From Pseudo-nitzschia pungens (lineage: Eukaryota > Bacillariophyta > Bacillariophyceae > Bacillariales > Bacillariaceae): 64,000 bases of DNA. The stretch spans positions 6,324,001 to 6,388,000 of the forward strand of contig CM074759.1 in the NCBI GenBank assembly GCA_037355855.1. The letters run 5' to 3'. Shown one piece after another: positions 1-31,410 of this stretch. The notes beneath the pieces are model-generated. The model made no database searches. It was given only the letters and a program-made list of their open reading frames with translations, and was not told the origin of the DNA. The position numbers were made by a program, and so were the translations under genes. How positions within the stretch are numbered: position 1 is the stretch's first letter; the number at the start of each line of letters is the position of its first letter.

Positions 1-963
1 CTCGTTTTGTACGTGCTGTTTGAGAGCGCAGTCTGTCTGTTCGTAAAGCGAACTGAGCCTCCGAATAAAGGTTTTCAAATCGCGGCGAAACCGTTTCATT
101 TCGGCAACATCAAAGTCAAATATGTCTTCGCTTGCGATGCAAAGCTGAACCGCTTCAAGTTCTGTGGAGTGCTTCAGTTGAAGCATACCGAGGGCATAGC
201 GACAGACACAGACACCGCAGTCGAAGGAATTGGTCTGCCGATGAACTTTTGCTTCGTAGATTTTGACTTCGCTGAATGGCCCAGTCTCATCATTCCATCT
301 ATCGTTTAGCCAATTAACAAGATTTTTGCGAACACCTTTCTTGTAATCCTCTTCGCAACCCAATGAGTCAAAAATCAACAAATAGGTGCTGTTGGCATCG
401 TCGTTTATCGCCCCGGGGTTTACAACGACAGATAGATTCCAGTGCAAGTTGTCAACGTTGGTTGGGAAAAAAAGAAGCTTCTTGTCGAAAATGTTGAAGT
501 GTACCCAGGATTTGACTTTCTCAACCCCTTCACTATTCAAATATGTGTAGAACCATGTCGGGAAGATATAAACGTCACTGCTGTAGCGTGAAATCCAATG
601 CATCCACAGGTTCAATAATGAATCATTTAGATGATTTCCATCATTAAGTCTCCGGTAATCGCTCACAAGAATTTCAATAGGCGTTTGTGTGTTTGGTTCA
701 TTTGTGGGTTCAGGGTCTCTCCAGGAAAGTTCACTTAAATTCACTGATGCATCTTCTAATGCAGCCTCAGTTGCTTCAAATGGAAATTTGACCAAAACTT
801 CATCATCACGCTCTTTGTTGGCTAAGAAGCTTTGATCTTCCTGATCTTCCTGTTTGTAGTCATCTTCTGGTTCGGCTTGACGGAACCAGCCCCGAAGAGT
901 GTCCAACTCAATTCTCTCCTCGCAGTGCTCGTCGTCATCGACGTTATTGATGGGCATCGTCAT
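1..963 (-). CDS. Ulp1/C48-type cysteine protease, partial (runs off left edge)
   Basis: The frame opens at ATG 963 and stays open for 321 codons to the window edge, so the C-terminus is missing. The second half reads as a Ulp1/SENP (peptidase C48) domain. His174 lies in NLHWNL, Asp199 in LLIFDSLG, and Gln243 and Cys249 in HRQTNSFDCG, which is the His-Asp-Gln-Cys order of this family. The first 90 or so residues are acidic and low in complexity. Family knowledge: these enzymes cut ubiquitin-like modifiers or process precursor proteins, and they are often captured by large DNA transposons and Polinton-like elements. The neighbourhood (a DDE transposase 5 kb away and several orphan genes) suggests it is element cargo; this is inference. 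Strand and frame are clear; the true substrate is unknown. Confidence 0.85.
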   Translation of the reverse strand, partial: MTMPINNVDDDEHCEERIELDTLRGWFRQAEPEDDYKQEDQEDQSFLANKERDDEVLVKFPFEATEAALEDASVNLSELSWRDPEPTNEPNTQTPIEILVSDYRRLNDGNHLNDSLLNLWMHWISRYSSDVYIFPTWFYTYLNSEGVEKVKSWVHFNIFDKKLLFFPTNVDNLHWNLSVVVNPGAINDDANSTYLLIFDSLGCEEDYKKGVRKNLVNWLNDRWNDETGPFSEVKIYEAKVHRQTNSFDCGVCVCRYALGMLQLKHSTELEAVQLCIASEDIFDFDVAEMKRFRRDLKTFIRRLSSLYEQTDCALKQHVQNE

Positions 964-3041: not shown

Positions 3042-3713
3042 ATGCCTACCTCAACATTCATCCGCCGTTACATTGTAATCACCCGCATGAAAGGACCTGC
3101 AACTATTGCTATGGTCAATGTCCTTCGCAACGCGGAAGAGTGCGACTATGCAACTTTGCTCAAGGGTGCCACCATTACCTCTTTGAACGAAAACAGAGGT
3201 CAAATCACTCTCAGGGCACCCTGGAACATGGTGCATGAAATCGAGTTGTTGGATTCCAATATTTACATTGAACTTCACCACAAGTTTCCAGCAACAGTTA
3301 TTGAGTCGTTCTTGTCTCTTGAGGATGCCTACAAGTTTGTTGCTGATGATGCTTTCTCATGTGCGAAAATTAAAGCTGGAATTAAGCGATATCGTTATCC
3401 TGAAGACGACTACGACGAAGACGACTTCGACGAGGACGGCTTCGACGCACCTACCGATAATAAATTTGAAGCCCGCTACGCCGATGAGGCAGGGCGAGTC
3501 CACTTTTGGGTCAAGCCTTCCCCAACAAACTCTGATGGCGTTCCCGAACCAGTTCAGACTCCCAAAGAAGTCGTTCGCGAACCAGTTCAGACTCCCAAAG
3601 AAGTTCGCGAACCAGTTCAGACTCCCAAAGAAGTTCGCGAACCAGTTCAGACTCCCAAAGAAGGCGTTCGCGAACCAGTTCAAGTCTCCGGTAATTTCTT
3701 TGGCAATAATTGA
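3042..3713 (+). CDS. Hypothetical acidic protein with VREPVQTPKE repeats
   Basis: ATG 3042 to TGA 3713, 223 residues. Residues 1-120 look globular and match no family I know. Residues 120-136 are an Asp/Glu run. Residues about 168-215 are a decapeptide repeat (VREPVQTPKE and close variants, about five copies) coded by a 30-bp DNA repeat. Each DNA unit carries GTTCGCGAAC, the same palindrome found in the element's non-coding DNA. A related word, VREPTGQETTPQR, can be read in the 16.6-18.6 kb gene of the second element, in the stretch 18,162-18,203. Function unknown. Confidence 0.6.
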   Translation: MPTSTFIRRYIVITRMKGPATIAMVNVLRNAEECDYATLLKGATITSLNENRGQITLRAPWNMVHEIELLDSNIYIELHHKFPATVIESFLSLEDAYKFVADDAFSCAKIKAGIKRYRYPEDDYDEDDFDEDGFDAPTDNKFEARYADEAGRVHFWVKPSPTNSDGVPEPVQTPKEVVREPVQTPKEVREPVQTPKEVREPVQTPKEGVREPVQVSGNFFGNN

Positions 3714-3738: not shown

Positions 3739-5589
3739 TCATGACATGTCGTCAAGATCTAGTGACATGTTGTCAAGATCAAAATCTAATTCTATCTCAA
3801 AACCATCGCCGTCTTTTTCTGTCGAGCTAGCCCTGGTGCTCATGTAGTCGCGGAGCTCCAAAAGTATTGCCCCGGCCTCGTAAAAGGTGCCAATGGGGTC
3901 AAGATCGGATGATTTCAAAGATGTATCGAAAGAATTGACTGAATCACAGTCGGGGACCACATGTAGTCATTCGGGGGGAGGGTTGGAGGCCAACCATTCG
4001 ATGTAGTACTCCTGACCCTTTGTTGCAGCTTCCTGTTGCCGTTGATAAAAATTTAGTTGGTCTCCATTTTTTCGTAATTGTCTGATTTTTTCATCTTTCT
4101 TTTTCTGACGGGATGATTCTGCTGCTTTCATACCTTTTTCCTGAGCATCACTGTGAATTCTATCATTACTTCTACGCTTCGGATTTTCTTCTCCTCTGTT
4201 CTCAGAATTTTCGAGAATAGTGAATATTTTCTTCATCCGACGAGCTTTTGCGACTTGTTCGTCGATGAGGGACTGACCGGCTTGTTCGTCAACGAGGTTC
4301 CCGACGGGTTCATCAGGCTTCCTGACAAGTTCAGTTGCACCATCGTCGAAGGGTCCGAATCCTGGCGGGTCTTCTACCGGTTTTGAAAAAAGAATGCGAA
4401 GGCGACGAAAAATAATATTTTGAAGTTAGAGTTACGTTAACACTATTCTAGTTCATACCGACACACCGACACACAACAGTTTCTACTCGCCAAAATGCAA
4501 ATTTTTAAACAAGGCATCCACCGACATCGCGTCGTTATCGTATTTGAGGTTTCGGATGTTGTTTTCGGATTCAAGGGCAATTTCAAAGTAGACAGTAGCA
4601 CACACGTTTGCTTGCTTTGACGACCCCACTTGATCAACCCAAATGGAATGACGTAGTTCGAGGTCGTAAGGATTAGTAGGATGATTTCCATCGGCGTCCT
4701 TGTTGAAGAGGTCGTTCGAGCCCACCATGTCTTTGAATTTGTAAAGAACGATTATTTCATTCTTTACCTCTTTCTTTTGTATAGGTGTGACAACCTTGCT
4801 CTTGTAGAACATGAAAGTGTTTTCGCAAAGAGGCACAAACTCCTTTCCGGTGGAGGTGGTGGCGGTGTCCATCTCAGTGGTGCTGGTGGATGCATACGGA
4901 TCCCTGTGAATTGCTTCTTCCTTTGAATGCATGAAGGTGGATGTTGCAGGCAACTTCACGACAACACCATCGCCATCTTCGGTAAGTTGCGCCGCGTATA
5001 GTTTTTCCACAATGTCATTGGGATCCCAAACCGGAAAGTACAGAGTAAGTTTCTTGCTCTTCGGGTTATTCCCTTTGGAGGATCGATGAGGAAAAGTTTC
5101 CTCAGCCAACATCGTCACAAGCGCAACACATCCTTGAATATTTCCAATAGGCTTTTCGGTGTTCAGGAAGGTTTCGCAGTCTGGTCTTGTTAGGCGCAGC
5201 TGCTTTCGGAACATGGTTGAATCGTTTCTCGGTGGCTTGATAGGCGTGCGAACAATGCTTGGAGCTTTTTGTGAGGATGTTCGTGAGGATGTTCGTGAGG
5301 ATGTTCGTGAGGATGTTCGTGAAGAGGGTTGAAAACTTAAAAGTCTTTCTTGAACCTTGTTGACCAATTCTTTATCGATGTCAGAAACAAAATAGGATGG
5401 TGGTAATTTTTTCCTGCGCTTCCAATTCTTGATTGAGTTACGCCAGTACTCCCGAGTCTTACTGCCGCGGGTTCCAAACAGATCTGTGTTGAGATCTAAA
5501 TGTGGACTCAAGTTACAAAGATCGACTCTGTCGTTCGCGATCAGCCTGAACAAAGCAATGGTAGCAGCTGTGCTTTCGGGCTTGTTCAT
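3739..5589 (-). CDS. Hypothetical element protein with candidate UGA-CUA readthrough and GC-AG intron
   Basis: ATG is at 5589; an earlier frame extension uses TTG only. Exon 1 (5589-4491) ends in frame phase 1 at G|GCGAGT. The next exon starts at 4373 (after TAG) or 4361 (after CAG); both keep frame. It runs to TGA at 3969-3967 after the word SNPPPE, and is rich in Lys, Glu and Gln. The same frame continues past TGA-CTA for 75 residues, with DLDPIGTFYEAG and an acidic end, to the stop at 3739. Exon 1 contains SRTS repeats (near 5280-5325) and RTPIKPP. The 16,577-18,560 gene shares this layout, including RTP, a phase-1 intron at the same place, TGA-CTA and the acidic tail. Function unknown. 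The GC donor (GT in the relative) and the readthrough are inferences. Confidence 0.55.
3964..3969 (-). other. In-frame TGA CTA, candidate stop-codon readthrough site
   Basis: TGA (3969-3967) is followed at once by CTA (3966-3964). The frame then stays open for 75 codons. UGA-CUA is an established readthrough context in viral and animal mRNAs. The same hexamer sits at the corresponding point of the related gene at 18,402-18,407. Confidence 0.45.
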
Positions 5590-6180
5590 CAATTTTTTAT
5601 GAGATCACTACGCTCGTGCAAACCATCAAATCGCGATCGAACTTGCAAAGGTGCACATCCTTCAATAACTGGTTCAGAACTCCAACTTTTTGTTACATCG
5701 CCAATTTAATTCAAACGACTTCAAAATCAGCAACCATAGTGTTCGTTATCATTGCAGACCCACGAAAAAGTATGTGAACACAGATTATGACAATGAGGAT
5801 TAATTTGAATTAACCTTACGAGTACGGTACCGTAAGTTACGGTAAGGTAACGGTAACTTGTTACAGTAATTTTTAGATTTAGATTTTAACAGCAGAAAGG
5901 GATATTCGGTATTAAGCGTACGTACCGGTAAGGTTACCAGGAAGTTTCGAAGCGCAAGTTCATCATACGTACCGGTAGCGTACGCGGTTCTTCCTTTTTT
6001 AATAAAGCCCTATCCCGAACGGAGTCTCCCGATGAACACGAAATTTTTATTTGAACGCGGAGAGTAACCTTACGGTACGAGTATCGTACATCGTACAGAA
6101 CCAAGACGTACAAGCACCCCAACGTTCGCGAACGCAGAGCAGTACGTACAAGTAATTTTGTCATAAAAAAAATTGAAGCA
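5590..6180. other. Intergenic between divergent genes
   Basis: This is the shared promoter region of the 5589 (minus) and 6181 (plus) genes. It is rich in the short words GGTAAC, TACCGGTA and GTACGTACC, which are common in intergenic DNA across the window. One TTCGCGAA palindrome occurs near 6125. No RNA gene or further coding frame was recognised. Confidence 0.4.
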
Positions 6181-7209
6181 ATGGTAATATTATGTAAACA
6201 ACCGGGAGAGGCTACAAGTGCAAGCCCCGAAAATACCAATGAAGCAACTTCAAAGTCATCTGGCAGGGCAATTCCAAGAAATCGAAGAAAAAACCAGCCG
6301 GTCATTGCACCCAGTGAAGATGATGTTTTACTTATTGGATTAAAGTATGTCCATTTCAACAGTGTTCGTCAAAACAGTGTCAGGAAAGAACGGAACATCG
6401 AGCGATTCAGAGCAAATTATGGTGTCACTCCTCTGACTGTAATGCATTTGATCCGAGATTTGCAAACTCTAATTGACGACGAGAACCGCATCAAGAAGTT
6501 CAGTTTGAAACATCTATTCTTAACGTTGCATTGGCTCAAAGCATACCCTACTTATGCAAAGATAGAAGGACCCTGGGGTATGTGCAAGAATGTTATTATC
6601 ACGAAAACCAAAATCTACACAGAGGCGATTGAACAGCTTCAACAGTTCAAAATCAGATGGTTCGAAGAAGGAGAAATCAATGATATGGACACTTTCATTG
6701 TCTCGGTCGACGGTATCCACTGCCCGATACAGGAGGTTCGAACAGATCCAAGCAGCAAGTGGTATTCACATAAGTTTCATGGGGCGGGTCTTGCATACGA
6801 ACTGGCAATTTCTGTCAGGTCCGATCGACTTGTGTGGATCAGAGGTCCTTACCCTGCATCACGACATGATATTTCAATCTTCAGATTCGGCGATGGTGAC
6901 GAGTCTAACCCACAGCCAAGTTTGAAAAGTATGATTCCAGCGGGCAAGCGAGCTATTGCCGACAGCGCTTACTGTGGCGAAGATGGAATATCCATCTCAA
7001 TAACACGTCAAGGGGACTCGGGAGAAGTGAAAGAGTTCAAAGCAAGAGCTAAATCTCGACAAGAAACTTTCAATGCTCGCATAAAGTCTTTTACTTCTAT
7101 GGGCACAACGTTTCGCCATTCCATCCAGCGCCATGCGGCTACATTTAGAGCCGTTTGTATCTTGGTACAATACGAAATCGAAAGTGGCCACCCTTTATTC
7201 GAAGTCTAG
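6181..7209 (+). CDS. PIF/Harbinger-like transposase (DDE_4 family)
   Basis: ATG 6181 to TAG 7209, 342 residues, no intron needed. The DDE_4 endonuclease core is clear: Asp177 in VSVDGIHCP, the conserved block LVWIRGPYPASRHDISIF (218-235), Asp261 in IADSAYCGE and Glu295 in RQETFNARIKSF. The N-terminal 50 residues are basic and disordered, and residues about 65-110 could be the DNA-binding part. It would cut and rejoin element ends. The match to the second transposase (complement 24,011-24,970) covers the same blocks, so the two elements are related. All three acidic residues are present, so the enzyme may be active. Its usual Myb-like partner is not recognised nearby. Confidence 0.9.
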   Translation: MVILCKQPGEATSASPENTNEATSKSSGRAIPRNRRKNQPVIAPSEDDVLLIGLKYVHFNSVRQNSVRKERNIERFRANYGVTPLTVMHLIRDLQTLIDDENRIKKFSLKHLFLTLHWLKAYPTYAKIEGPWGMCKNVIITKTKIYTEAIEQLQQFKIRWFEEGEINDMDTFIVSVDGIHCPIQEVRTDPSSKWYSHKFHGAGLAYELAISVRSDRLVWIRGPYPASRHDISIFRFGDGDESNPQPSLKSMIPAGKRAIADSAYCGEDGISISITRQGDSGEVKEFKARAKSRQETFNARIKSFTSMGTTFRHSIQRHAATFRAVCILVQYEIESGHPLFEV

Positions 7210-7371
7210 ATATGATGGCGATCATCGTTTGGACCAACGAAAAGAATAATTTATAGACTTGTTCGTGACAGAAGTCTCAACTAATAATACATAGTTTATT
7301 GATTGAACAGACCAATTGTTCGTGACATTAGATTGCTGTTCTTGTTCGTGACATTAGATAGATACGTTCAA

Positions 7372-8487
7372 CTAACTGATCTTCATTTGACTCAAGTCAA
7401 GCTTGGATAATTCCTCCTCTGTTACCCTGTCCTTTCGCATTGCTCTGTTTCTTTTGTCTACCCAATACGGAACTTCTCTGTGAGCTCGAATCGTTCTGTA
7501 AACTCTGTCCCGAAAAACGTTGGGGGGTAGATCACTGTATTCTGGTCTCAACGCCTTCAAACCCATTGGTTTCATGCCTTGAACATCGTAAATTCCACCT
7601 TTCTTAGTGTCTTCTTCTAATAACTTCCGGTGGGGATTATCTGGATGATTCCATCGAACATATCCGACTTTCAGTATGCGTTCCTGCGGATACTTCAATC
7701 TTTCTGTTTGAAATGCCTGTTCATCGAATTCGACATTAGTCTTTTCTGTATCGATAGTTTGTTTCAAATTAAGGAAGTTGGTTTTGAAATTTTGGAAAGG
7801 GAAAGGTTGGAAGAGAGCGGAAGAAGCGTGAATCTTCTCAATTGTAATAACTGTGGTTCGGCTGCGCCTGACACCAAATGTAGGATTGTCAGCAATCATT
7901 TTGTTGACCCATGAAGTCTCATCCCTCAACAATCTAGAAAGTGCTTCCTTTGCTTTACTCTTCGCCCATGGAACTACAGTTTGACTCGTTGGAAAACTGA
8001 TCGGTAGTGAAAGGGGCGAAGACGGCTTTGACTCTATTTTAATGTGAATGCGCTTTCCGTTCTTAGCTACCAAATCTTCGTGTAGTAGGACAAGGCCTAC
8101 ATTCGTTTCCATCAAATCGACACATAGTTGATGAAGCGCATCACGCCTGGCCTGTCCGCCATAAAAGTACTTTTCATTTCCTGCGCTTGCTGTCAAAATC
8201 CACTGACAAAGTTTGCGTTTATCTGACTCAATATGTTCGTCCCGTGTCCTCCGTGTCTGCCGTGCGCATCTTGCCTCTGTCTGCCTCGTTTCGCTTGCTC
8301 CGGGAGTTGTCGGTTCCAAATCCGTGGCTACCTCGCTTGCCTCTGTCTGTCTCGTTTCATTAGTTGCTGCTAAAGTGGTAGCTACCTCCGGACATGTTCT
8401 TGCCGCAACTTGCGCGTCGATATCTTCTCCGCAATCATTGTTCCATTTAATAGGGATCACCATTTTTGATGATCGCAATATCGCCAT
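7372..8487 (-). CDS. Hypothetical protein of the first Harbinger-like element
   Basis: The first ATG in the frame is 8487 (MAILRSSKM), giving 371 residues; upstream extension relies on a GTG codon. It is convergent with the transposase, ending 163 bp from it. The N-terminal 70 residues are low in complexity, with a short repeat (NETRQTEA and SETRQTEA) whose DNA also shows a repeat near 8270-8360. The remainder is mixed and globular: LVLLHEDLVAKNGK, TSWVNKMIADNPTFG and a basic C-terminal third with RVYRTIRAHREVPYW. No known family is recognised. Coding is supported by length and balanced composition in an otherwise repeat-rich stretch. Confidence 0.6.
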   Translation of the reverse strand: MAILRSSKMVIPIKWNNDCGEDIDAQVAARTCPEVATTLAATNETRQTEASEVATDLEPTTPGASETRQTEARCARQTRRTRDEHIESDKRKLCQWILTASAGNEKYFYGGQARRDALHQLCVDLMETNVGLVLLHEDLVAKNGKRIHIKIESKPSSPLSLPISFPTSQTVVPWAKSKAKEALSRLLRDETSWVNKMIADNPTFGVRRSRTTVITIEKIHASSALFQPFPFQNFKTNFLNLKQTIDTEKTNVEFDEQAFQTERLKYPQERILKVGYVRWNHPDNPHRKLLEEDTKKGGIYDVQGMKPMGLKALRPEYSDLPPNVFRDRVYRTIRAHREVPYWVDKRNRAMRKDRVTEEELSKLDLSQMKIS

Positions 8488-8639
8488 GTGTGTACAGGGA
8501 CTAGCGATGGGCACGGAGGTTAGCGCTACTAAGTTCACGAACGAAACAAATAGTATTTAGTACCGGTACAAGACACGCCTGCCGTTTGCATCGGTCCAGT
8601 GAAAAATAGGTAGAAATAGTACAACGCGTACGTACGTTG

Positions 8640-8925
8640 TACGTTTACGAACAGACAGATAGGCAGACAGACGAGCAAGAATATAGACGAACAGACAGAC
8701 GAAATAGACAGACGAACAGACGAACAGACAGATTGACGAACATAATACGTAGTATGGTACTAGCGTACGCTCAGTAGTGTCTGTTTGTCTGTCTGTTCTT
8801 ATGTTCGTCTGTGACGTTCGTTCGGGAACAGACTGATAAGACGATCAGAGAGACAAAACAGACAAGACAAGCAAACAGACAACCAGCTAGACGACAATAG
8901 ACAGACGAACAAGTGATCTTACTCT
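8640..8925. repeat. Degenerate GACAGACGAACA-type repeats
   Basis: Many imperfect copies of CAGACGAACAGA and its reverse complement (TCTGTTCGTCTG-like) fill this stretch downstream of the 8487 start. It has no coding content. Confidence 0.7.
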
Positions 8926-8952
8926 TAGTCGTCCTGTTCGTCCTGTTCGTAA

Positions 8953-9105
8953 TGACACCAGACGACACCAGCGTTCGTCATGACACCAGTCGACACCAGT
9001 CGACACCAGTCGACACCAGTTGACACCAGTTGACACCAGTCGACACCAGTCGACACCAGTCGACACCAGACGACACCAGACGACACCAGTCGACACCAGT
9101 AGACG
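8953..9105. repeat. 10-bp tandem repeat (GACACCAGTC)
   Basis: About fifteen near-perfect 10-bp units, GACACCAG followed by TC, TT or AC, run head to tail. The open frames seen here on both strands are artefacts of the repeat. Confidence 0.9.
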
Positions 9106-9655
9106 ACACCACCTGCAAAGTGGCGACCAAGGTTTAGCGATAAGTTTTAGCGATTTTGGCGATTACGTGTTCGCGAAAAGAAAAAATAGTTTATCGAGGG
9201 GGGGGGGGGTTCAATCGGAATTTCTTCTCAAAAAAATTCTCTTGTGACAACTGAAACAAAAAGGGTCATGGGGATTTAAGAATTTACAATTTTTTTTTTT
9301 CCCTTTTTCGAAACCTCTTGTGCCTCAACCAAAAACTAAAGCGCGCGCGATTCAGGGGGTTGGAAAAATTTAATTTGAACTATTTTTTTAAAAATCAACC
9401 ATGTTCCTGGGATTTTGATTTTTTTAACGGATTTTCAGACTACCGTACCGGTACCGGTACTGTATGGGATGAAGAATGGAGAGACACCGCGGAGTACAAG
9501 GGACCTTCGTAGTACGATTAAGGTTAATTGTACTGCCGAATCTACTCTTAACTAACTTACCTACGAAACATATCTAAAATCCCATTACCAATGCCCACAA
9601 CGGTAGTCTTACTTGCACCTTGAGAGTACTTAGTCCCCACTAAGGTTTAACTGTC
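9106..9655. other. Intergenic, homopolymer-rich
   Basis: This holds runs of G (about 9200-9211) and T (about 9289-9300) and no convincing gene. A short TACCGGTACCGGTA word is near 9443. Confidence 0.4.
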
Positions 9656-9656
9656 T

Positions 9657-10215
9657 GGAGCGGTCGGAAATAGAAAAACGTGCGCACCGCGCGACAGGTT
9701 AAGTTTTTTCAAAATGATACGTATGAACTTACTGTACATACTACATATATCAATGTGTGATTTACGTATTAATACGTAGAACGAGATAAGTAATAAGTAA
9801 CGTTCATGAAAAAAATCTCCACGATTCAAATTTAAAAAGGGGGAACCGGGAAACTAAAACCGGGAAACTAAAAATAGTTGTTTTTGGTTCACGTAATTAA
9901 TTAATTACGTACGTAATTAATTAATTACGTACGTAATTAATATTACGTACAATTGGATTTAATTACGTACGATTGCAGTTAATTACGTACGATTGCAGTT
10001 AATTCCGTACGATTGAAGATTAATTACGTAACTATGTGGCTTACATAGGTAAAGTAGCCAATTTAATGACGCAATAATAATTTAAATATGCCCTATATCA
10101 ATGTAAAACATAAGCCTCTTATTAGAGCCTCCAAATTGCTTCAATTTGATGACAAAGACGATGTATGCGCCTTTTAAACTGCCGCTAACAGCCACATAAT
10201 AGATACTATAGACGT
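9657..10215. repeat. Inverted repeat arm A, left
   Basis: It begins with GGAGCGGTCGGAAATAG and continues through GTATTAATACGTAG and GATTCAAATTTAAA. It then has a run of palindromic ATTACGTACG units (9890-10,030) and a unique inner part ending near TGTATGCGCC. The same order, reverse-complemented, occupies 25,565-26,102. Confidence 0.85.
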
Positions 10216-10344
10216 ATATGCGCCATTTAAAGTGCCGCTGATAGCCACTTATTCGGTACAGGCTGTCGGCGCCACTTTAGATGGCGCCCTTACTGGTACG
10301 ATAAGCCCCTTTAAGTGGCGCTGGAGCTGAGTATTTGTAAATGG

Positions 10345-10400
10345 CTGAAGTGATGAGCCAATAAAAAAATTCGATTTTCCAGTACAAATTGTACACAGAT
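10345..10400. repeat. Short inverted repeat, left copy (paired with 28,455-28,515)
   Basis: The stretch GTGATGAGCCAATA through GTACAAATTGTAC reappears in reverse orientation near 28,455-28,515. This extends the inverted organisation beyond 28 kb. Confidence 0.6.
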
Positions 10401-10419
10401 TTATGTAGAAAAAAAATTA

Positions 10420-10603
10420 ATGCAAGGGGGACAGCAAGCAGCAAGCAGCAACGCGTCGATAATACAGCGGGGGACAGCAAGCAGCAACGCGTCGATAATA
10501 CAGGGGGACGCGTCGATAATACAGGGGGGGGGGACAGCAAGCAGCAACGCGTCGATAATACAAGGGGGACAGCAAGCAGCAAGCAGCAACGCGTCGATAA
10601 TAC
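10420..10603 (+). repeat. Minisatellite with core ACAGCAAGCAGCAACGCGTC, left flank of element
   Basis: Units of roughly 20-40 bp read GGGGGACAGCAAGCAGCAACG then CGTCGATAATACAG, about five copies. The same units in the same orientation resume at 26,258-26,400 and again at 27,045-27,140. The DNA between 10,604 and 26,255 therefore looks inserted into this array. Confidence 0.8.
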
Positions 10604-11280
10604 AGGAGCGGTCGGAAATAGAAAAACGCGCGCACCGCGCAAAAGGTTAAGTTTTTTCAAAATGGTACGTATGAACTTACCGTACATACTACATATATCA
10701 ACGTGTGATCTACGTATTACTGCGTAGAACGTGATAAGTGAATTTAAAAAGCGGTCGGAAATAGAAAAACGTGCGCACCGCGCGACAGGTTAAGTTTTTT
10801 AAAAATGATACGTATGAACTTACCGTACATTCTACATATATAAATGTGTGATTTACGTATTAATACGTAGAACGAGATAAGTAACGTTCATGAAAAAATC
10901 TCCACGATTCAAATTTAAAAAAGGGGGCACCGGGAAACTAAAAATTGGTTTTCTTTACGTAACGTACGTAATTAAAATTAAAATTACGTACGTAATTAAT
11001 TAATTACGTACGTAATTAATTAATTACGTACGTAATTAATATTACGTACGATTGGATTTAATTACGTACGATTGGATTTAATTACGTACGATTGGATTTA
11101 ATTACGCACGATTTCACAATTAAGCTCTTGAGTGGCTTATATCATAATTAAATAAGCCAAATAACATTAAAAATATACTTAAGCCTATCAATGTTGCGCG
11201 TAGGCTATTACTATAGACGTATAAGGTATACGCGCCATTCAAAGTGCCGCTGATAGCCACTTATTCGGTACGTACGTACT
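10604..11280. repeat. Left composite terminal repeat with arm B
   Basis: It contains the terminal sequence twice (10,604 and 10,751), then palindromic ATTACGTACG units (about 10,965-11,115). An inner part follows, containing CTCTTGAGTGGCTTATATC and CTATAGACGTATAAGG. The inner part is matched, inverted, at 27,415-27,600. Confidence 0.8.
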
Positions 11281-11590
11281 AATATCCCAACTGGTTTACG
11301 TACTGGGGGCTGTCGGCGCCACTTTCAATGGCGCCTTTACTGGTGAGGTAAGGTAAGTTAGGGTTTAGGGTTACAGGTAAGTCAGCGCACTTCTAGTGGC
11401 GCTAAAAGTCACTCTACGCGCCATTCAAAGTGCCGCTGATAGCCACTTATTCGGTACGTACGTACTAATATCCCAACTGGTTTACGTGCGGGGCGCTGTC
11501 GGCGCCACTTTCAATGGCGCCTTTACTGGTAAGGTAAGGTAAGTTAGGGTTTAGGGTTACAGGTAAGTCAGCGCACTTCTAAACTTACCA
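11226..11590. repeat. About 190-bp tandem duplication
   Basis: The block starting ACGCGCCATTCAAAGTGCCG at 11,226 recurs from about 11,416. Both copies run through AGGGTTTAGGGTTACAGG to GCGCACTTCTA. Each contains GTGGC/GCCAC hairpin motifs. Confidence 0.8.
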
Positions 11591-12120
11591 TGAAACGCCC
11601 CTTTAAGTGGCGCTAAAAGTCACTCTGCTGCGTAAGGTTAACTTACCGGTAACTTACGTACTAGAACCACAGATATACGGTACGGAGTACAGTCGGACTA
11701 AGATCTTACCGTACGTTACAGTGGCTGTCAGCGCCACTTCAAAGCTTGCGTTTGTAAACCCTAAGGTAACGCCCCTTTATGGCTGTCAGCGCCACTCTGT
11801 CAGCGCCACTTCTAAACTTAACCTTACCGTAAGTAAGATCTTAACGCTAAGGTTAAGGTAGAAACGCCCCTTTAAGTGGCGCTAAGACCGAAAAATCGTA
11901 GGCTGGGAGCTTAACCTTACCGAACGTACGTACCGGTAACCTTACTAAAAAGTGGCTGTCGGCGCCACTTTAAATGGCGCCTCTGGAACTGTAAGGTTAC
12001 CGCTGCCTATTAGGACTAAGATTACCGGTAAAGGTTACAGTGCTATCAGCATCTAGCTATGGTATATTTCTATCCTACTAAGGGCCCATAAAATGCAAGC
12101 AGCTCAAGAGAAAGGGAGAG
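11590..12120. other. Non-coding, GTGGC/GCCAC hairpin motifs
   Basis: No gene was recognised. The stretch is made of words such as AGTGGCTGTCAGCGCCACT (11,720-11,738) and GTAAGGTTAC-like words, forming part of the left subterminal region of the element. Confidence 0.6.
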
Positions 12121-12345
12121 GTCAACGGGTTTCGACGTGGGTATAGGCATAGTCTGAAGAAAAGGAGGCCTCGGCGGTGGTGTGCGGGGGTTAGACCCAG
12201 TAACGGGTTTCGACATGGGTATAGGGACGACGTTCGCCAGTCCGGTCTCTGGTCGGTGGTGTGCGGCGGTTAGACCCAGTAGTAACGGGTTTCGACGTGG
12301 GTATAGGGACGACGTTCGCCAGTCCGGTCTCTGGTCTGTAATCTG
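12121..12345. repeat. Imperfect tandem repeat over the 3' end of the 486-aa gene
   Basis: The word AACGGGTTTCGACGTGGGTA and its variants occur three times (about 12,125, 12,202 and 12,284). Two of the copies are followed by GGGACGACGTTCGCCAGTCC. The last copy forms the end of the 12,270-13,730 reading frame. Confidence 0.85.
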
Positions 12346-13730
12346 AAGAAAAGGTTGCTGGCGTAGTGGGCCTGGTGGAAGGGGTTTTGAAGGTATTCTT
12401 GAAGCCGTGCGCCGAGCAAATGGGCGTAGCAGGACGCGTTGAAGGCAAAAAGAAGGCCATTAAGGACAGCGAAGCGCAAATACGCGGTGCCGCGGTGAGG
12501 GAGGTTGTCCCTCGCGGTCGGCGCGAACGCGACAGTTACAAGCTGGAGCGTGGTAGGGGTTGGCTTGGGGACGTTGGGGATAGTTTCCCGGACCCCGGCG
12601 AGCGTTTCGTGGATGGGGAGGGTAGACACGGCGGAAAAGACGAGGCTATTGTGATTCCGCAGGTGATTGAGGAGGTGGTTATGGAATGTGGCAGGGCCGA
12701 TAGAAGTGCCGCTAGAACCTACAGCACCCGGAATGTTGAGGCCGTAGTCGAGTCTGGGTAGGCCAAGGATGGCTAGGATGAAGGCAGCGCCGGTGGCGGC
12801 GTTTGACTGCATCGTAGGGCGGCCCTGGCGGAGGACAGCATAGACGTTCGCAGCGCGGTCGCCAATGATGTCACGGCGCGCAAGCTCGTCAAGAACGGCC
12901 TGGGGTCGGATGAGGCGTTTGGTCATATTTCGGCGGTAGTTGAGTTGAATCAAACCGGAAGGGGGCTCGTTCGCGTGGTCGATCTCAACGTCGGGAGCCT
13001 CGACGCTCGAATCGTCCTCCTCGATTGCATCAGGCTCGCCGGGAGGCGGGACCTCGACACTCGAATCGTCCTCGGCGAAAGGGTCTCCGGCGATCAGGAG
13101 ATCAGCGTTTGCCGGGAGATCTTCATTAGCCTGGAGATCAGCGTTTGCCGGGAGATCAGCAGCATCAGGTGGGGGATTGTCATTAGCCTGGAGATCAGCG
13201 TCTTCCGGGAGATCAGCAGCATTAGGTGGGGGATTGTCATTAGCCTGGAGATCAGCGTCTTCCGGGAGATCAGCAGCATTAGGTGGGGGATTGTCATTAG
13301 CCTGGAGATCAGCGTCCGGGAGATCAGCGTCTGCCGGGAGATCAGCGTCTGCCGGGAGATCAGCGTTAGGTGCGGGATTGTCATTAGCCTGGAGATCAGC
13401 GTCTTCCGGGAGATCAGCAACATTAGGTGGGGGATTGTCGTTAGCCTGGAGATCAGCGTCTGCCGGGAGATCAGCGTTAGGTGCGGGATTGTCATTAGCC
13501 TGGAGATCAGCGTCTGCCGGGAGATCAGCGTTTGCATGGGGAGGATCATTAGTGTCATCTGAGAGGACCGCAAGGACAGCAGGAGCGGCGGATCCAATTG
13601 CGCCCTGGGTGCTGGCGATTGCCCGAGCGGCCGCTAGGCGGACACCGTTAGTTAGTTCGGGCATCGCGTTAGGGGAAATGGCCTGGACGGCATGCACGAT
13701 GCGGAGGATTTGTTCGACGTAGTTTTCCAT
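12270..13730 (-). CDS. Hypothetical protein with acidic DLPADADLQANDNP repeats
   Basis: ATG 13,730 to TAA 12,270, 486 residues. Residues 1-60 are Ala-rich and helical in character (MENYVEQILRIVHAVQ). Residues about 65-210 are an acidic repeat of 19-20 residues built on ADLPADADLQANDNPPPN, coded by a 57-60-bp DNA repeat (13,110-13,540). An acidic linker with EDDSSVE follows, then a C-terminal domain from about residue 260 (YRRNMTKRLIRPQAVLDELARR onward) that looks globular. The last 20 residues are encoded by a tandem DNA repeat, so the natural C-terminus may have been changed by repeat expansion. No family is recognised. It lies inside the second Harbinger-like element. Confidence 0.55.
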   Translation of the reverse strand: MENYVEQILRIVHAVQAISPNAMPELTNGVRLAAARAIASTQGAIGSAAPAVLAVLSDDTNDPPHANADLPADADLQANDNPAPNADLPADADLQANDNPPPNVADLPEDADLQANDNPAPNADLPADADLPADADLPDADLQANDNPPPNAADLPEDADLQANDNPPPNAADLPEDADLQANDNPPPDAADLPANADLQANEDLPANADLLIAGDPFAEDDSSVEVPPPGEPDAIEEDDSSVEAPDVEIDHANEPPSGLIQLNYRRNMTKRLIRPQAVLDELARRDIIGDRAANVYAVLRQGRPTMQSNAATGAAFILAILGLPRLDYGLNIPGAVGSSGTSIGPATFHNHLLNHLRNHNSLVFSAVSTLPIHETLAGVRETIPNVPKPTPTTLQLVTVAFAPTARDNLPHRGTAYLRFAVLNGLLFAFNASCYAHLLGARLQEYLQNPFHQAHYASNLFFRLQTRDRTGERRPYTHVETRYYWV

Positions 13731-13739
13731 GGGAGTGGT

Positions 13740-13980
13740 TTAGAAGGTACTTGTAGTTGCAGAGAGCTGGAGGAAGTTGTGAGCAAAGTGAAAACAAGTT
13801 GCAGAGAAGGAAGTTGTGAGAGAAGTGAAAACAAGTTGCAGAGAAGGAAGTTGTGAGAGAAGGAAGTGGTGAGCAAAGTAACGCGTGAGCTGTTAACGTG
13901 GAGGGGAGTGTGGATGGAGGAGCGTGGGAACTCAGCGTGGGGAACTCAGCGTGGGGAACTCAGCGTGGGGAACTCAGGTT
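13740..13980. repeat. Short tandem repeats upstream of the 486-aa gene
   Basis: Two blocks are seen. The first is a GTTGCAGAGAAGGAAGTTGT unit (13,755-13,880, about 36-bp period). The second is AACTCAGCGTGGGG, a 14-bp unit repeated four times (13,928-13,975). They lie in the 5' flank of the minus-strand gene. Confidence 0.8.
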
Positions 13981-14900
13981 TTTGAGTGACGTGAATCATG
14001 GAACGATCAAATTTTCGCTGTGGGAGTTACCGTACGGGGCACATGGCGTCCTTTTGAGGGGCTTTCCCATCCATTAAGCCCTGATATGGAATATTCGATC
14101 TTCATTACTATATATTTATATTAGCAAATTTTCAAAAAAATCGAAACTCAGCGCATAGTAATTAATTATCATAAGCCACGAGACGCCGATGAAAGTGGCG
14201 CTAACGGTCACATAGCGCCACTTTAACGGGCGATTCTACAGTACATATCGTACCGTTTGTAAAGAATTTTGTGGAAGAAGCGGCGCTAACAGCCAATTTA
14301 CGAAACCTACACCAGTACTGTAAAAGGCGGTACGAGTAGTTCCATGATTCCCGTCACTCAATCAAAAACCTGAGTTCCCACACTCCTCCATCCACAATTA
14401 TTTTCGTCACCGGCGCTTGAAACGGCGCTAACAGCCAATGTACGAAACCTACACCAGCACTGTACAAGGCGGTACAGGTTCAAGATTCAGACACCGTACC
14501 TTACAGCACCCCTTGGGTGTGTAACATGCTAGTGTAGGCTAGTAGTGTTACGAATTAATAATTAAACGAATCCCACATGGGATTCAGATATATATAAGGT
14601 ATTCAAGTACGAAAATCTGGTATGTACAAACAGGCATGCAGAAGAGAGCGATTATACGATTAAGGTTACATACAGAATATATGTTATATACAGGGATGCA
14701 CATTATATGAAGAGGTCGCGATGACCTCATCGCTCATTATTTCCTCTCTTTAATTTCAATCCCATCTCGTAAAGTGAATTAACACACAATTATTCATACT
14801 ACTCCGAATTTCTACCTTAGAGTGTTACAGGGTGATAGTACGAATGGATGGTAGTAGGGCCCTCTAGTAGGATAGATATGTACGAACCCCAACTCCTAAG
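13981..14900. other. Non-coding stretch within the element
   Basis: No gene was recognised. GTGGCGCTAAC/GCGCCAC motifs occur near 14,190-14,215 and 14,280. A 40-bp word (AACAGCCAAT, TACGAAACCTACACCAG) occurs twice, near 14,290 and 14,430. Confidence 0.5.
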
Positions 14901-15625
14901 CTCTTAGGAGCTCTTTATTACAAGATATTTAGTGTGCTAACAGATAGACGGAACTTCGCCAGGGGGGATATTGAACTGGATGCTAAACAGGATGCTAGGC
15001 CCCTTAAGTAGGATTTGTACCAGAGCTACATACCCCAGCAGCTCTTAGGAGCTCTTTATTACAAGATATTTAGTGTGCTAACAGATAGACGGAACTGATC
15101 AGGCCAGGGGGATATTGAACTGGGTGCTAAACAGGATGCTAGGCCCCTTAAGTAGGATTTGTACCAGAGCTACATACCCCAGCAGCTCTTAGGAGCTCTT
15201 TATTACAAGATATTTAGTGTGCTAACAGATAGACGGAACTGATCAGGCCAGGGGGATATTGAACTGGATGTTAGACAGGATGCTAGGCCCCTTAAGTAGG
15301 ATTTGTACCAGAGCTACATACCCCAGCAGCTCTTAGGAGCTCTTTATTACAAGATATTTAGTGTGCTAACAGATAGACGGAACTTCGCCAGGGGGGATAT
15401 TGAACTGGATGCTAAACAGGATGCTAGGCCCCTTAAGTAGGATTTGTACCAGAGCTACATACCCCAACAGCTCTTAGGAGCTCTTTATTACAAGATATTT
15501 AGTGTGCTAACAGATAGACGGAACTGATCAGGCCAGGGGAGATATTGAACTGGATGCTAAACAGGATACTAGGCCCTTCAAGTAGGATTTGTACCAGAGC
15601 TACACACCCCAGCAGCTCTTAGCAG
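14901..15625. repeat. 141-145-bp tandem repeat, five copies
   Basis: CTCTTAGGAGCTCTTTATTA starts at 14,901, 15,042, 15,186, 15,330 and 15,471, with a truncated sixth start at 15,616. Copies differ at a few places, chiefly ACTGATCAGGCCAG against ACTTCGCCAGG, which accounts for the 141 versus 144 bp periods. No open frame is conserved through it. Confidence 0.95.
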
Positions 15626-16441
15626 TACAAGGTTCACACTGTAGCATTGTTCTACAAGGTTAAGGTTGCTACGCTACTGAATATGGGATACAGTTCCAAC
15701 TACCGTGGAGTATGGTCATAGTGTACAATAAGTACTAGAACCGGATGCCCAGCCCTGCAGTGAGCACGCGAGCACTTTAGCGAGCGCCCTAGCAAGCATG
15801 GTCACTTAAAATGGCGCCGTTCATTGAGCGCCACGTTAAGGGGCGTTAATTTCATTCTTGAAGCGCCTCTCACGTTGGCGCCTGCAGCACTCGTAACCGT
15901 AACAATTCTCAAGGAGAATAAGTTCTTACCGTACCGGTAAATTACCGATAGACATACCGGTAACTTAGCGCACATAGCCACTGAACGAGAACAAGATCGG
16001 CCTTCCTACTTACGATTAGAATAGCCTTACTCGGAGAAGCTCGTCTTGATGAGGTGGCGCTAACATCCACTGAACGAGAACAAGATCGGGCATCCCACTT
16101 ACGATTAGTAATTAACCCATGCTCTTTCATAGTTCAAGTATCAACGCCCGTCTCTTCCACAGTTCGAGTATCAACGCCCGTCAAATGGACGCTTTGTTCC
16201 TCGTACGATTACGAACCGTGCTAATTACATGATGTACTTTCACTAAGTAGAAATAAGTTACTCGGAAAACGCCCCTCGAACTAACGCTCTACGCCTGTCA
16301 AATGGACGCTTTGTTCCCTGTTGGTACTGTACTGAACATTGAAGAACCAAGACCGACCTCAGAAACTTGCCTGATCATGAAGTACTAGTTTCGAAACTCT
16401 AAGCAAGTTCGCAACGGCTTGCCTCTCGGCATACTACGGAA
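15626..16441. other. Non-coding, GTGGCGC motifs and short duplications
   Basis: No gene was recognised. CACTGAACGAGAACAAGATC occurs twice (about 15,979 and 16,066), and CGCCCGTCAAATGGACGCTT-type words recur near 16,170 and 16,290. Confidence 0.5.
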
Positions 16442-16516
16442 TTCCTATCAGCTGTCCCCCGGTTTCCGTAGAAATTAGTAGTTGAGGATGTAGAACCGGG
16501 GGACAGCTGATAGGAA
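16442..16516. repeat. Perfect 23-bp inverted repeat (hairpin) upstream of gene
   Basis: The arms 16,442-16,464 and 16,494-16,516 are exact reverse complements with a 29-nt loop. The arm core is CAGCTGTCCCCCGG. It ends 60 bp before the ATG at 16,577. Confidence 0.95.
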
Positions 16517-16576
16517 CTTTGTAGTAGTGTAAAGAATCGTTCCGAACTAATAGTTCCGAACTTCTCATAATTTGTC

Positions 16577-18560
16577 ATGGGACGAACCAAAGGAGCAGCT
16601 GGGAAGAAACAGGCTTCGCCGAGAGAACAATTTGAAAGGCAAAGCTCAGTTGGTAAAGTCTGTATCTACAACTACTGGATTTACCGAGAGACAGAAGGCA
16701 AGGTTGGCTGGGATCCGGATAAAGCTGGAAGAGTAGATCAGTGGAATTCATCTGCTTCCATATCTGACAAAATCAAAAAAGGATCATTCTACCACTTTGG
16801 AAAGGTAAGACGTTTAGCGACACGCAGCATGGCGGTGAGCACTGTGAAGAAATACAAATGCCAATTGCAAGTTTCTCACGCTTCTTGTTCTCCACAAGCG
16901 AATGGCAGAAATAGCAGAACTTCTTCGAAAGCAAGGACTCAAGCTTGTTCGTCCGAACGGGGGACATCCATCTATTTTTGAACGTGAAGAGGATTCCGAC
17001 TACGAATCTGAAACATCCAAATCTGAAACATCCAAATCTGATTCTGGAGGCCAAGTAGTATTCGACCTTGAAGACAGTGACCTGAAGAAGCCTGGCAAGA
17101 TGCCGTTGAAATCAATCCTCAGAACACCCACCCCCAAGAAACGTCAAAGCTCTGGTAGCACTGACCTCGACCTCTCCCGTCGTATCGATGAGCTCCACAT
17201 TAACGGCCCCGTAATGGAGCAGTCAATCAAGGGTGCTATCGCTATGATTATGATCTCTGGTCGTTGGACCGAATTCGATCAAGTAGCCGAAGTTCAAAGA
17301 GGATATTGCTTGATGAGAATGCTCGTTCATAATGACGCCAAGTTGAGACACTTCGAGATCTCTTGGGTCAATGAGCACACTTTCAACATAAAAATGAGGT
17401 GGCCAGAGTACATGGAAAGGTGCTTGATGCTCACAACTCTCGATACATACAGGAAAGACGGGAGCAATGAGGAAATTCAGCGCTATCCTGCGAATCATCG
17501 AGTCTACGACAGTATGGGGCTGAACGTCAAGAATATGAAATCCCAATACCAAGACAACAGGATGCGAAGCGAAGGCAACTTTATCTTCGACTATCCGATG
17601 GACACCAGAAACGGAAAAGTCGTTTTGGATCTGTTTGATGTCCCAATCGAAAAGAAGAAGAAGGAGAAGAAGAATGAAGATTCTGATGATATGGATGCTT
17701 CAGATGATTCGAATGAATCGGAGTATCACCCAGACGAAGAAGCCAAGAAGTATACGACCATTCTCCAGATACTCTTTTACGAGAAGACTGAATCCGATGA
17801 AGGTCAAAAAACTGTTGCAACAGTCAGCCGTCGTCAGGGTGCTGTCAATTTTGGTGAGTTTCCTGCCCCTCGTCCTCCTCCGACGGTAAAGGCTCTACCG
17901 TCGCGCCCCGCTCCTCCGACGGTGCCTCTACCGTCGCTCCCCGCTCCTCCGACGGTGCCTCTACCGTCGCTCCCCGCTCCTCCTACGGTGCCTCTACCGT
18001 CGCTCCCCGCTCCTCCTACGGTGCCTCTACCGTCGCTCCCCGCTCCTCCGACGGTAGAGCCTTGACCATCGCTCCCGTCGCTCCCTCTTGTTCCGGTGGA
18101 TCTGTGCACTCGCGAACCGCCTGGACAAGTCATTCCCCCGTCCCCCATACGGCCGCAGGGCGTTCGCGAACCGACTGGACAAGAAACTACACCGCAAAGA
18201 GGTTGAAGCCCCACGCGACATTACTCACCACGCCGCCGGACGCCCAGTAGAAAAAGAGTGGATGACGATGAGGTTGAGGTTGGCGAGGACATTGTAGAGA
18301 CATGCCAAAAGAAACCAAAAAATGACGATGGCGACTCACATGACGACTCACATGACACAACTCACAATAATGCTTCTGTGTTCAACTCTCAGACTGATTT
18401 ATGACTATTTAGAGACCTCGATACAGGAGATGATGATTCGAGTGACGTCGATTCAGGAGATGATGTTTCGATTTCATCTTCTTCGATCGATCCCATCAAA
18501 ACCTTGGAAGAAGGTCTGGAAGAACTTGCTCTGCATTTGAGCGATTTAGGTCTTGATTAG
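16577..18560 (+). CDS. Hypothetical element protein with candidate UGA-CUA readthrough
   Basis: Proposed exons: 16,577-16,804 (donor AAG|GTAAGA), 16,899-17,853 (donor G|GTGAGT) and 18,298-18,404 (acceptor ATTGTAG|AG). Phases match and give 429 residues to TGA 18,402-18,404. The frame continues after TGA-CTA for 51 residues (DLDTGDDDSSDVDSG, then SSIDPIKTLEEG) to TAG 18,560. If the second intron is retained, the frame ends at TGA 18,065 after a Pro-rich PAPPTVPLPSL repeat. The body carries SILRTPTPKKR, an acidic linker and a KKKKEKK run. It is a distant relative of the complement 3739-5589 gene, with the same motif order, intron place and tail. Function unknown; the first acceptor (CCACAAG) is weak. 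Confidence 0.5.
17880..18060 (+). repeat. 33-bp repeat, coding PAPPTVPLPSL or intronic
   Basis: Four to five near-perfect 33-bp units read GCTCCTCCGACGGTGCCTCT and onward. By the preferred splice model they lie in an intron that starts with GTGAGT at 17,854. Confidence 0.85.
18402..18407 (+). other. In-frame TGA CTA, candidate stop-codon readthrough site
   Basis: TGA (18,402-18,404) is followed by CTA. The same frame stays open to TAG at 18,558-18,560. The position and hexamer match those in the related gene at 3964-3969. Confidence 0.45.
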
Positions 18561-18715
18561 AATAGTTCCATGTCTGCTGGTTGGTAGCGGAACTGTCGTC
18601 GATTCAGGAGATGATGATTCGATTTCATCTTCTTCGATCGATCCCATCAAAACCTTGGAAGAAGGTCTGGAAGAACTTGCTCTGCATTGAGCAATTTATG
18701 TCTTGATTAGAATAG
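18430..18715 (+). repeat. About 160-bp duplication of the 3' coding end
   Basis: The stretch GTCGATTCAGGAGATGATG through GTCTTGATTAGAATAGTTCC is present at about 18,446-18,569 and again from about 18,597. The second copy has TGA in place of the TTG that continues the first and is probably non-coding. A third piece of the flank (GTCTGCTGGTTGG) follows near 18,790. Confidence 0.85.
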
Positions 18716-24010: not shown

Positions 24011-24970
24011 CTAGAAGTAATGCGGCTTGAATTCGTCATCGTATTCCCAGTCTTCGATTTTTTCCCCTGCCTCCATTTTCAACTGCGTAATGACAGCTAC
24101 AGCTGTGAAGCAAATTTTGTGCTTCTGCATCATGGCTTCTCTTGGCTTCATATGCCGAAAGGATGTAGTAAGTACATTGAAGACTTTGAGTTTCCCATTA
24201 ACTCTTTCGTTCCTCGACCTAGCAAGTGCCTTGGATTTCCTCGCTTCTGAATCCCATCCGATATCAGGCCTCTTAAGTTGCCTCGCTGAAACAGAATCTT
24301 CTCTGATATTGTAGATCCCATCAGCTTCGACGCATTCGTCAACTGCAAGCTTCTCGCTCAATCCGTTTTTGAATATCGCCGGGTCTTGCACGCTGGCTTT
24401 GAAAGGACCATTGATCCAGACAATATGCGCAGTTCTGATACAGACTCCTACTTCATATTTCAATGCGGGCCCATTTGTTTTCTGCGAGAACCATTTCCTG
24501 TCGAATGGCCAGGGCTCAAATATAGGACAATCGACGCAGTCAACGGACATGAATGTGTTGGTCTTTACCTCGTCTCCCCTTTTGTACCCACCAAATCTAT
24601 TCTCTAACTTTATGACATCATCTTTAAGTTCGGACATTTTTTCAACGAAGAACCAAGACCACTTACGGAATGTCTTTGTTGAGGGCCAATCAAGTACTGC
24701 ACAATGGATTTCTTCTGTCGAGTATATCTTGATAAGAACGAGCCCGTAGAGAAGATGCTTGTATTGAACACCTTCTTCAATAAGCTTTTCCCTCTCTCTC
24801 TTTCTCAACTTCTCCCAGATCTTATTCCATATGTCTGCAATTAGATCGAGCGGTGCTCCGAACACAGCACGGATTCGTTTTTCCTTCTCTTTCGAGTTCC
24901 ATCTGCGATGATTTGGCCAGCAAAGAGTCTCTCTTGCTTCTTGATCAAAAATCTCTTCAGTTGCAATCAT
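24011..24970 (-). CDS. PIF/Harbinger-like transposase (DDE_4 family)
   Basis: ATG 24,970 to TAA 24,011, 319 residues, intronless. The DDE_4 core shows Asp144 in FMSVDCVDCPIF, the block IVWINGPFKASVQDPAIF, Asp217 in VEADGIY and Glu255 in RSRNERVNGKLK. All three acidic residues are present. The N-terminal 110 residues are basic and helical (EKLRKREREKL). It shares block order with the 6181-7209 transposase but is clearly diverged. For example, PASRHD is KASVQD here. It lies at the right end of the element, transcribed inward, next to the subterminal repeats, as expected for the enzyme that moves it. Confidence 0.88.
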   Translation of the reverse strand: MIATEEIFDQEARETLCWPNHRRWNSKEKEKRIRAVFGAPLDLIADIWNKIWEKLRKREREKLIEEGVQYKHLLYGLVLIKIYSTEEIHCAVLDWPSTKTFRKWSWFFVEKMSELKDDVIKLENRFGGYKRGDEVKTNTFMSVDCVDCPIFEPWPFDRKWFSQKTNGPALKYEVGVCIRTAHIVWINGPFKASVQDPAIFKNGLSEKLAVDECVEADGIYNIREDSVSARQLKRPDIGWDSEARKSKALARSRNERVNGKLKVFNVLTTSFRHMKPREAMMQKHKICFTAVAVITQLKMEAGEKIEDWEYDDEFKPHYF

Positions 24971-31345: not shown

Positions 31346-31410
31346 ATCAATTTTCTTCGCAATAAATTTCCTTCCCACCCCCGTCGCCTTCTCAAGCAAC
31401 ATCGCCTATC

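Follow-up and report, generated by a model that had tools for sequence, protein, structure and literature searches.

A 64,000-nucleotide stretch of the genome of the diatom Pseudo-nitzschia pungens (contig CM074759.1, positions 6,324,001 to 6,388,000, forward strand; hereafter the window) carries two multigene mobile elements, E1 and E2. Each has a gene that is interrupted near its 3' end by an in-frame TGA and then stays open into a short tail. Programmed UGA readthrough in DNA transposons with a DDE_Tnp_4 (PIF/Harbinger-like) transposase is the best reading of these genes and of their relatives elsewhere in the genome, and judging from the sequence we consider it quite probable. Between element families, the tail behind the stop is under in-frame constraint at the protein level.

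The gene in E1 (gene 1, minus strand) has an ATG at 5589 in frame with a TGA at 3969-3967, which is directly followed by CTA (3966-3964). The next 75 codons in this frame are open and end at another stop (TGA, 3741-3739). In the E2 gene (gene 2, plus strand) the key TGA (18402-18404) is likewise followed by CTA (18405-18407), and the frame is open for 51 codons beyond that TGA, to TAG at 18558-18560. A common core was found in both tails, SSDLDPIGTFYEAGAILLELRDYM in gene 1 and SSSSIDPIKTLEEGLEELALHL in gene 2. The first exon of gene 1 is separated from the next open stretch by four stops, which points to an intron between them. In the window, gene 2 is represented by a decayed copy that has extra in-frame TGA codons at 18063-18065 and 18204-18206; the five other E2 copies have CGA at these positions and 518-529 open codons up to the key TGA. 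Coordinates of these and other features are collected in Table 1.

Searches of the host genome (67 Mb, 28 contigs) with exon and tail queries recovered at least 23 copies of the gene in five diverged families: E1 (5 copies), E2 (6), E3 (4), E4 (5), and E5 (3). These counts are lower bounds, drawn from the best-scoring candidates. One E3 copy was degraded, and one copy each of E4 and E5 was decayed. TGA was present at the site in 23/23 copies and in every family. The last exon was otherwise free of stops in 19 of the 23 copies (E1, 5/5; E2, 5/6; E3, 3/4; E4, 4/5; E5, 2/3), and all 23 tails were open to their family's own second stop, which is TGA, TAG, TAA, TGA, and TAA in E1 to E5, respectively. 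The tail length was constant within each family and ranged from 42 to 75 codons over the families.

The bases flanking the stop were uniform across all copies within each family. The codons before, at and after the site are GAA TGA CTA in E1, TTA TGA CTA in E2, GAA TGA CTC in E3 and E4, and TTG TGA AAT in E5. CT follows TGA in 20 of the 23 copies, representing four families (E1-E4), and AAT in the three copies of E5. The full TGA-CTA is found in 11 copies (E1, E2) and TGA-CTC in nine (E3, E4), and the octamer GAA TGA CT is common to 14 copies (E1, E3, E4).

A preliminary description of the window had reported an in-frame TGA-CTA near the 3' end of both genes, followed by an open tail with a common core, and this was confirmed in both. 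In its second example, gene 2, the key TGA and the tail are in place, and the copy itself is decayed. The description had also taken the TGA-CTA hexamer to be conserved. This holds for UGA, which none of the 23 copies has lost; CUA is replaced by CUC in two families and by AAU in one, so that the conserved signal reads UGA, usually then CU. A sense codon at the site or a different stop context had been named as grounds for rejecting the idea. No sense codon was found among the 23 copies of this one genome; different contexts were found in E3, E4, and E5, and E1 and E2 keep CUA.

The tail proved to be the most widely recognizable part of the gene, since tail queries reach more families than exon queries. 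A genome-wide translated search with 44 residues of the E1 tail gave 17 matches at E <= 10, all of them tails behind the corresponding TGA (E1, 5; E3, 4; E4, 5; E5, 3); the six E2 copies were missed. E-values between the E1 tail and the tails of E3, E4, and E5 ranged from 1e-6 to 0.06. With the E4 tail as the query, 28/28 matches fell in tails of E1-E5, E2 included; six of them fall in a tandem duplicate of the E2 tail core. With a cut-off of E <= 0.001, the first exon of E1 (368 residues) recovered E1 only, the last exon E1 and E3, and the tail E1, E3, and E4. Weak matches were also obtained at C6:5817599 (E 1.88) and C1:2403339 (E 0.5); in the weak matches at loci L051, L052, and L055 (E 0.4-3.5) the matching query ranges lay outside the tail.

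Behind the stop, the five families share the pattern S-x-D-x-S-...-[LI]-D-P-I-x-[TR]-...-E-[AG]-...-L-x-E-L. Over the ten family pairs, differences were found at codon positions 1, 2, and 3 in 109, 98, and 205 of 298 codon pairs (0.37, 0.33, and 0.69), counted over a core of 31 codons (28 for pairs with E2); the ten pairs are non-independent and the core was picked by amino-acid likeness, which takes some weight from this count. Ratios of non-synonymous to synonymous substitution rates (dN/dS) over the whole tail were computed for five family pairs. E1 and E3, which are closest to each other at the gene level, gave a dS of 1.61 and a dN of 0.41 over 42 aligned codons, a ratio of 0.26. The last exon of E1 is 42.7% identical to that of E3 (75-column alignment, last 72 residues of the E1 exon). 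The proportion of non-synonymous differences between the two was 0.32 in the tail versus 0.35 in the 72 aligned codons directly upstream of the stop, so that the tail and the upstream part are similarly constrained in this pair. The frame behind the stop of this gene gave a score of 104 between E1 and E3, which 0 of 1000 shuffles reached. As controls, the post-stop frame of the transposase (E1/E3) gave a score of 17 and that of a 945-amino-acid gene (E2/E3) a score of 15, with 600 and 620 of 1000 shuffles, respectively, as good.

The tail consists of an acidic, serine-rich linker followed by the conserved DPI-x-T/R-x-x-E-A...L-x-E-L segment; in E2, 17 of 51 residues are D or E. This segment is predicted with moderate confidence to form a helix, a prediction drawn solely from an AlphaFold model of the E4 tail (five sequences). 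In that model, the mean predicted local distance difference test score (pLDDT) was 70, a helix covered residues 36-56, and the last three ten-residue blocks had mean scores of 75, 89, and 81. The first exon of E1, modelled alone, gave no usable model (mean pLDDT 33), and no match was obtained for a tail profile against PDB or for the tails against Pfam. The tandem second copy of the E2 tail core, which lies beyond the second stop in a different frame, could serve as a spare exon end or could be a defunct duplicate. It was also observed that in one E5 copy (L056) the sequence NSIDPNSMFEAASDI, just before the stop, resembles a degenerate second tail core.

Alternative splicing is the main rival to readthrough, although we regard it as unlikely. 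The reading frame of the unspliced or regularly spliced mRNA would end at the TGA; in a second form, with an acceptor located behind the TGA and ahead of the core, the tail would be a separate 3' exon and the TGA would never be read. The E1 and E2 genes each have at least one intron, as judged from stops and a frame change, and a donor-like site (GGTAAGA) is present at 16804 in the E2 gene. Frame-keeping GT...AG pairs of at least 50 nt that would remove the TGA are possible in 5/5 families, which counts against readthrough. E1 and E3 each have a single AG between the stop and the core, at a similar position (28 and 25 nt, respectively). They also have in common one GT, in GAGTAC, that lies 40 nt ahead of the stop, but joining this GT to the AG breaks the frame in both families (71 and 68 nt). 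Within 250 nt, the frame-keeping donors of E3 number only two (GCGTCGTC and TCGTCACG), and neither resembles the GTAAG-type site found in E2. The coding sequence is conserved between E1 and E3 as far as the codon that precedes the TGA (NPPPE), and conservation sets in again shortly behind the stop. Furthermore, splicing would require neither UGA in all five families nor CU after it in four. We infer readthrough rather than splicing. Re-initiation at an AUG inside the tail is unlikely because no methionine precedes the core in any of the five tails. No stable RNA structure was detected in the 121 nt from the stop (z = -0.92, -0.35, -0.43, -1.58, and -1.28 for E1 to E5), which is consistent with readthrough driven by the stop context.

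Decay of inactive copies would explain the stop as a CGA changed to TGA by CpG-type C-to-T mutation, the tail being the former C terminus. Such changes do occur: two were seen in the window copy of E2 and one each in copies L060 and L061, and their repeated appearance in decayed copies suggests methylation-like C-to-T decay at CpG. As an account of the key stop, decay is nevertheless very improbable, because TGA is present in 23/23 copies, among them near-identical recent ones and the 19 whose last exon has no further stop, and because the constraint on the tail persisted after the families diverged. We see next to no likelihood that UGA encodes selenocysteine in these genes. The presence of UGA at the site in every copy would fit, but no selenocysteine insertion sequence was found at E <= 5 in a scan of window positions 1-24000 (the 3' regions of E3, E4, and E5 lie outside it), the six weak Rfam matches in the same region belong to other families and are below gathering scores, and the residues around the UGA vary between families and show no redox motif. 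An ordinary stop followed by a functionless open stretch is just as improbable: the chance of an open tail alone is 0.03 to 0.13 (for 75 to 42 codons), but this idea is contradicted by the conservation of the tail between families, with a core common to all five, the third-position excess, and the negative controls.

Some observations weigh against UGA readthrough, and others limit the comparison of the families. The context of E5, TTG-TGA-AAT, is no known strong readthrough context, making this family the weak point; either readthrough is low there, or it is driven by another feature. CUA was not kept in E3 and E4. BLASTP does not demonstrate homology between the upstream body of E1 and those of E2, E4, and E5, and the best indirect link upstream is between the first part of E4 and E3 (E = 5.8e-5); we treat the five genes as one because the tail is shared, the last exons of E1 and E3 match, and a neighbouring gene is common to E1, E3, and E4. 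The tails of E2 and E4 differ without an excess at third positions (22/18/22, ratio 0.62), and no ratio could be obtained for the pairs E1-E4, E3-E4, and E4-E5, whose tails are saturated at synonymous sites. Within families, the tails of the 23 copies vary at 3 synonymous and 16 non-synonymous codons, with no synonymous excess, as expected of copies decaying after insertion and in numbers too small to show selection. Finally, all five families come from one genome, and searches of protein and viral-contig collections gave no relative elsewhere. The last exon of E3 with its tail, compared with a set of 5.8 billion proteins, gave nothing at E <= 1 among 7995 scored candidates, and the E4 tail as a region query gave 7 candidates, none at E <= 10. 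In viral contigs, the tail profile (A2) picked out 5 pattern stretches and no relative, and no relative of the E1 transposase was found.

The preliminary description had predicted more synonymous than non-synonymous change after the stop, and this was observed between families of the same genome and not within families. The likeness of the tails exceeds chance, as the E1 tail matches the tails of three further families directly behind the TGA. The suggestion in the preliminary description that one gene yields a short and an extended protein is supported, at the level of sequence, by the stop, the frame, and the tail kept in the element families of this genome.

Readthrough of stop codons is well established for viruses and retroelements and for some genes of fungi and animals. 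It has been shown that UGA followed by CU suffices for efficient readthrough in Ustilago (PMC4207609), and in human cells 2.29, 0.99, and 0.61% were reported for UGA CUA contexts and 0.27% for UGA CUU (PMC4359377). Another study emphasizes both a C following the UGA and the large influence of the bases on its 5' side (PMC12233894). Five fission-yeast retrotransposons share a strictly conserved GAA-TGA-CT at their Gag/Pol stop, which has been taken as a readthrough signal; according to work cited in the same source, transposition requires the Tj1 stop, and readthrough in budding yeast is promoted by AA in front of a stop (PMC10085805). Candida Tca2 has a gag-UGA-pol arrangement, and in yeast the sequence flanking its stop failed by itself to direct readthrough (PMC2194720).

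The diatom elements resemble the fission-yeast elements Tj1, Tcry1, and Tosmo1-3 in that a mobile element carries an in-frame UGA and, as proposed here, would make a short product and a less abundant extended one. The contexts are also close, being GAA-TGA-CT(A/G) in fission yeast and GAA-TGA-CT(A/C) in E1, E3, and E4. Unlike the case of retrotransposon Gag-Pol, the elements described here are DNA transposons with DDE_Tnp_4, and the proposed extension is a tail of 42-75 residues, not a polymerase. Ustilago tpi1 and human LDHB, MDH1, and AQP4 share with four of the five families the UGA-CU context and a short conserved C-terminal extension. In contrast to those genes, the host gene here belongs to a diatom DNA transposon, and the putative extension is a linker-helix module rather than a peroxisomal signal; the base at +6 is A or C, and one family has UGA-AAU in place of the UGA-CU(A) of those genes. 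Among the open PubMed Central papers listed in literature searches, we noted no case of readthrough in a cut-and-paste DNA transposon or in a diatom nuclear gene.

In the mechanism that we propose, most ribosomes would stop at the UGA and release the short protein, while a minority, perhaps a few per cent or less, would insert an amino acid via a near-cognate tRNA and continue into the tail. Readthrough would be helped by the CU after the stop in four of the five families and by the preceding GAA in three. The helix of the tail would probably bind a partner, for example, the transposase or a host protein, and the tailed form may be kept as a minor subunit, the helix being of use on just a fraction of the molecules. 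We infer both the ratio of short to extended protein and the role of the tail. A broader proposal is that one lineage of diatom multigene DNA transposons sets the ratio of tailed to untailed protein by UGA readthrough, as retroelements do for Gag and Gag-Pol, with the same GAA-UGA-CU in three families and with a helix reached only by readthrough as the most constrained part of a gene that has otherwise diverged beyond recognition; we consider this proposal evenly balanced between right and wrong. The five families that have kept the UGA and the tail would form a natural comparative series for the bases flanking stop codons in diatoms, and the tail would provide a new handle on the self-regulation of transposition in multigene elements. 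Annotation ending at the first stop would miss the best-conserved part of the protein.

Table 1. Features of the window, with the two candidate readthrough genes listed first.
Feature	Position	Strand	Remarks
E1 candidate readthrough gene, first exon	4487..5589	-	368 open codons from ATG 5589; donor position approximate; at least 5 genome copies
E1 candidate readthrough gene, last exon to stop	3970..4425	-	152-codon open stretch, ends ...EYYIEWLASNPPPE; acceptor approximate
E1 in-frame TGA	3967..3969	-	context GAA TGA CTA CAT; same in 5/5 E1 copies
E1 putative readthrough tail	3742..3966	-	75 codons, acidic, core SSDLDPIGTFYEAGAILLELRDYM; second stop TGA 3741-3739
E2 candidate readthrough gene, last long open stretch	16848..18401	+	518 codons in 3/5 intact copies; 528 and 529 in the other two
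E2 in-frame TGA	18402..18404	+	context TTA TGA CTA TTT; same in 6/6 E2 copies
E2 putative readthrough tail	18405..18557	+	51 codons, core SSSSIDPIKTLEEGLEELALHL; second stop TAG 18558-18560
Tandem second copy of E2 tail core	18592..18693	+	beyond second stop, different frame; 6/6 E2 copies
E1 transposase (DDE_Tnp_4)	6181..7209	+	Pfam PF13359, E=2.7e-10
E1 gene, function unassigned	7372..8538	-	relatives in E3 (44-45%, three copies) and E4 (23%)
Ulp1-type (C48) protease gene	1..963	-	open at window start; Pfam PF02902, E=6e-15
E1 right end	9407	.	five copies continue into five distinct flanks
E2 transposase (DDE_Tnp_4)	24011..24970	-	Pfam PF13359, E=2e-7
AP-1 gamma protein	54408-57068		best match 87% identity; 81% Psemu1; 69% Nitzschia sp. 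Nitz4

The elements are classed as PIF/Harbinger-like by their transposase alone, which was assigned to DDE_Tnp_4 by Pfam in E1 and E2 and by likeness to the E1 transposase in E3. Identity of the E1 transposase is 58% with the E3 enzyme and 29% with the E2 enzyme; E5 was read only over the candidate readthrough gene. E1-E4 are regarded as related elements because genes are shared among them. A scan of eight E1 and E2 proteins detected no reverse transcriptase domain. Typical Harbinger elements are described as having two genes, for a transposase and a Myb-like protein (PMC9179366). The diatom elements are like PIF/Harbinger in having the transposase plus further genes, and unlike the typical two-gene element in that these genes are more numerous and that no Pfam Myb domain was found in the candidate readthrough gene. 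For a Myb-like second protein, no Pfam match at E <= 0.05 was obtained in E1 exon 1, the E2 gene, or the gene at 7372-8538, in a scan of part of the open reading frames (ORFs) of the elements; a very diverged Myb may be present. The last exon of E1 matched only DUF4604, below the cut-off.

The Ulp1-type protease gene at the start of the window probably belongs to E1, the left end of which lies outside the sequence read. Of the other four E1 copies, two still match into this gene over the part that was read, which reaches down to window positions 851 and 881. An Ulp1 protease gene close to a transposase of the PIF/Harbinger type seems an unusual combination for a multigene element. E2 starts near 9.65 kb and carries long inverted repeats towards its ends (roughly 9.7-10.2 and 25.6-28 kb). 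In one E4 copy (L053), a stretch lying upstream of the gene (DGGSEF...NPQSNSVLERIH) looks integrase-like; perhaps a retroelement was inserted there.

Beyond the elements, the window contains the gene of an AP-1 gamma protein; Psemu1, the source of one of its matches, is presumably Pseudo-nitzschia multiseries, and three of the 120 matches listed bear the name Bacillariaceae sp., in keeping with a diatom of that family. A plus-strand, repeat-bearing ORF (3042-3713) ends about 26 bases from the second stop of the E1 tail, the two genes being convergent. Tandem repeats inside long ORFs were observed at 22088-22879, 30537-31406, and 13103-13586; their units start 33, 35 (also 22 and 57), and 54-87 nt apart, respectively.

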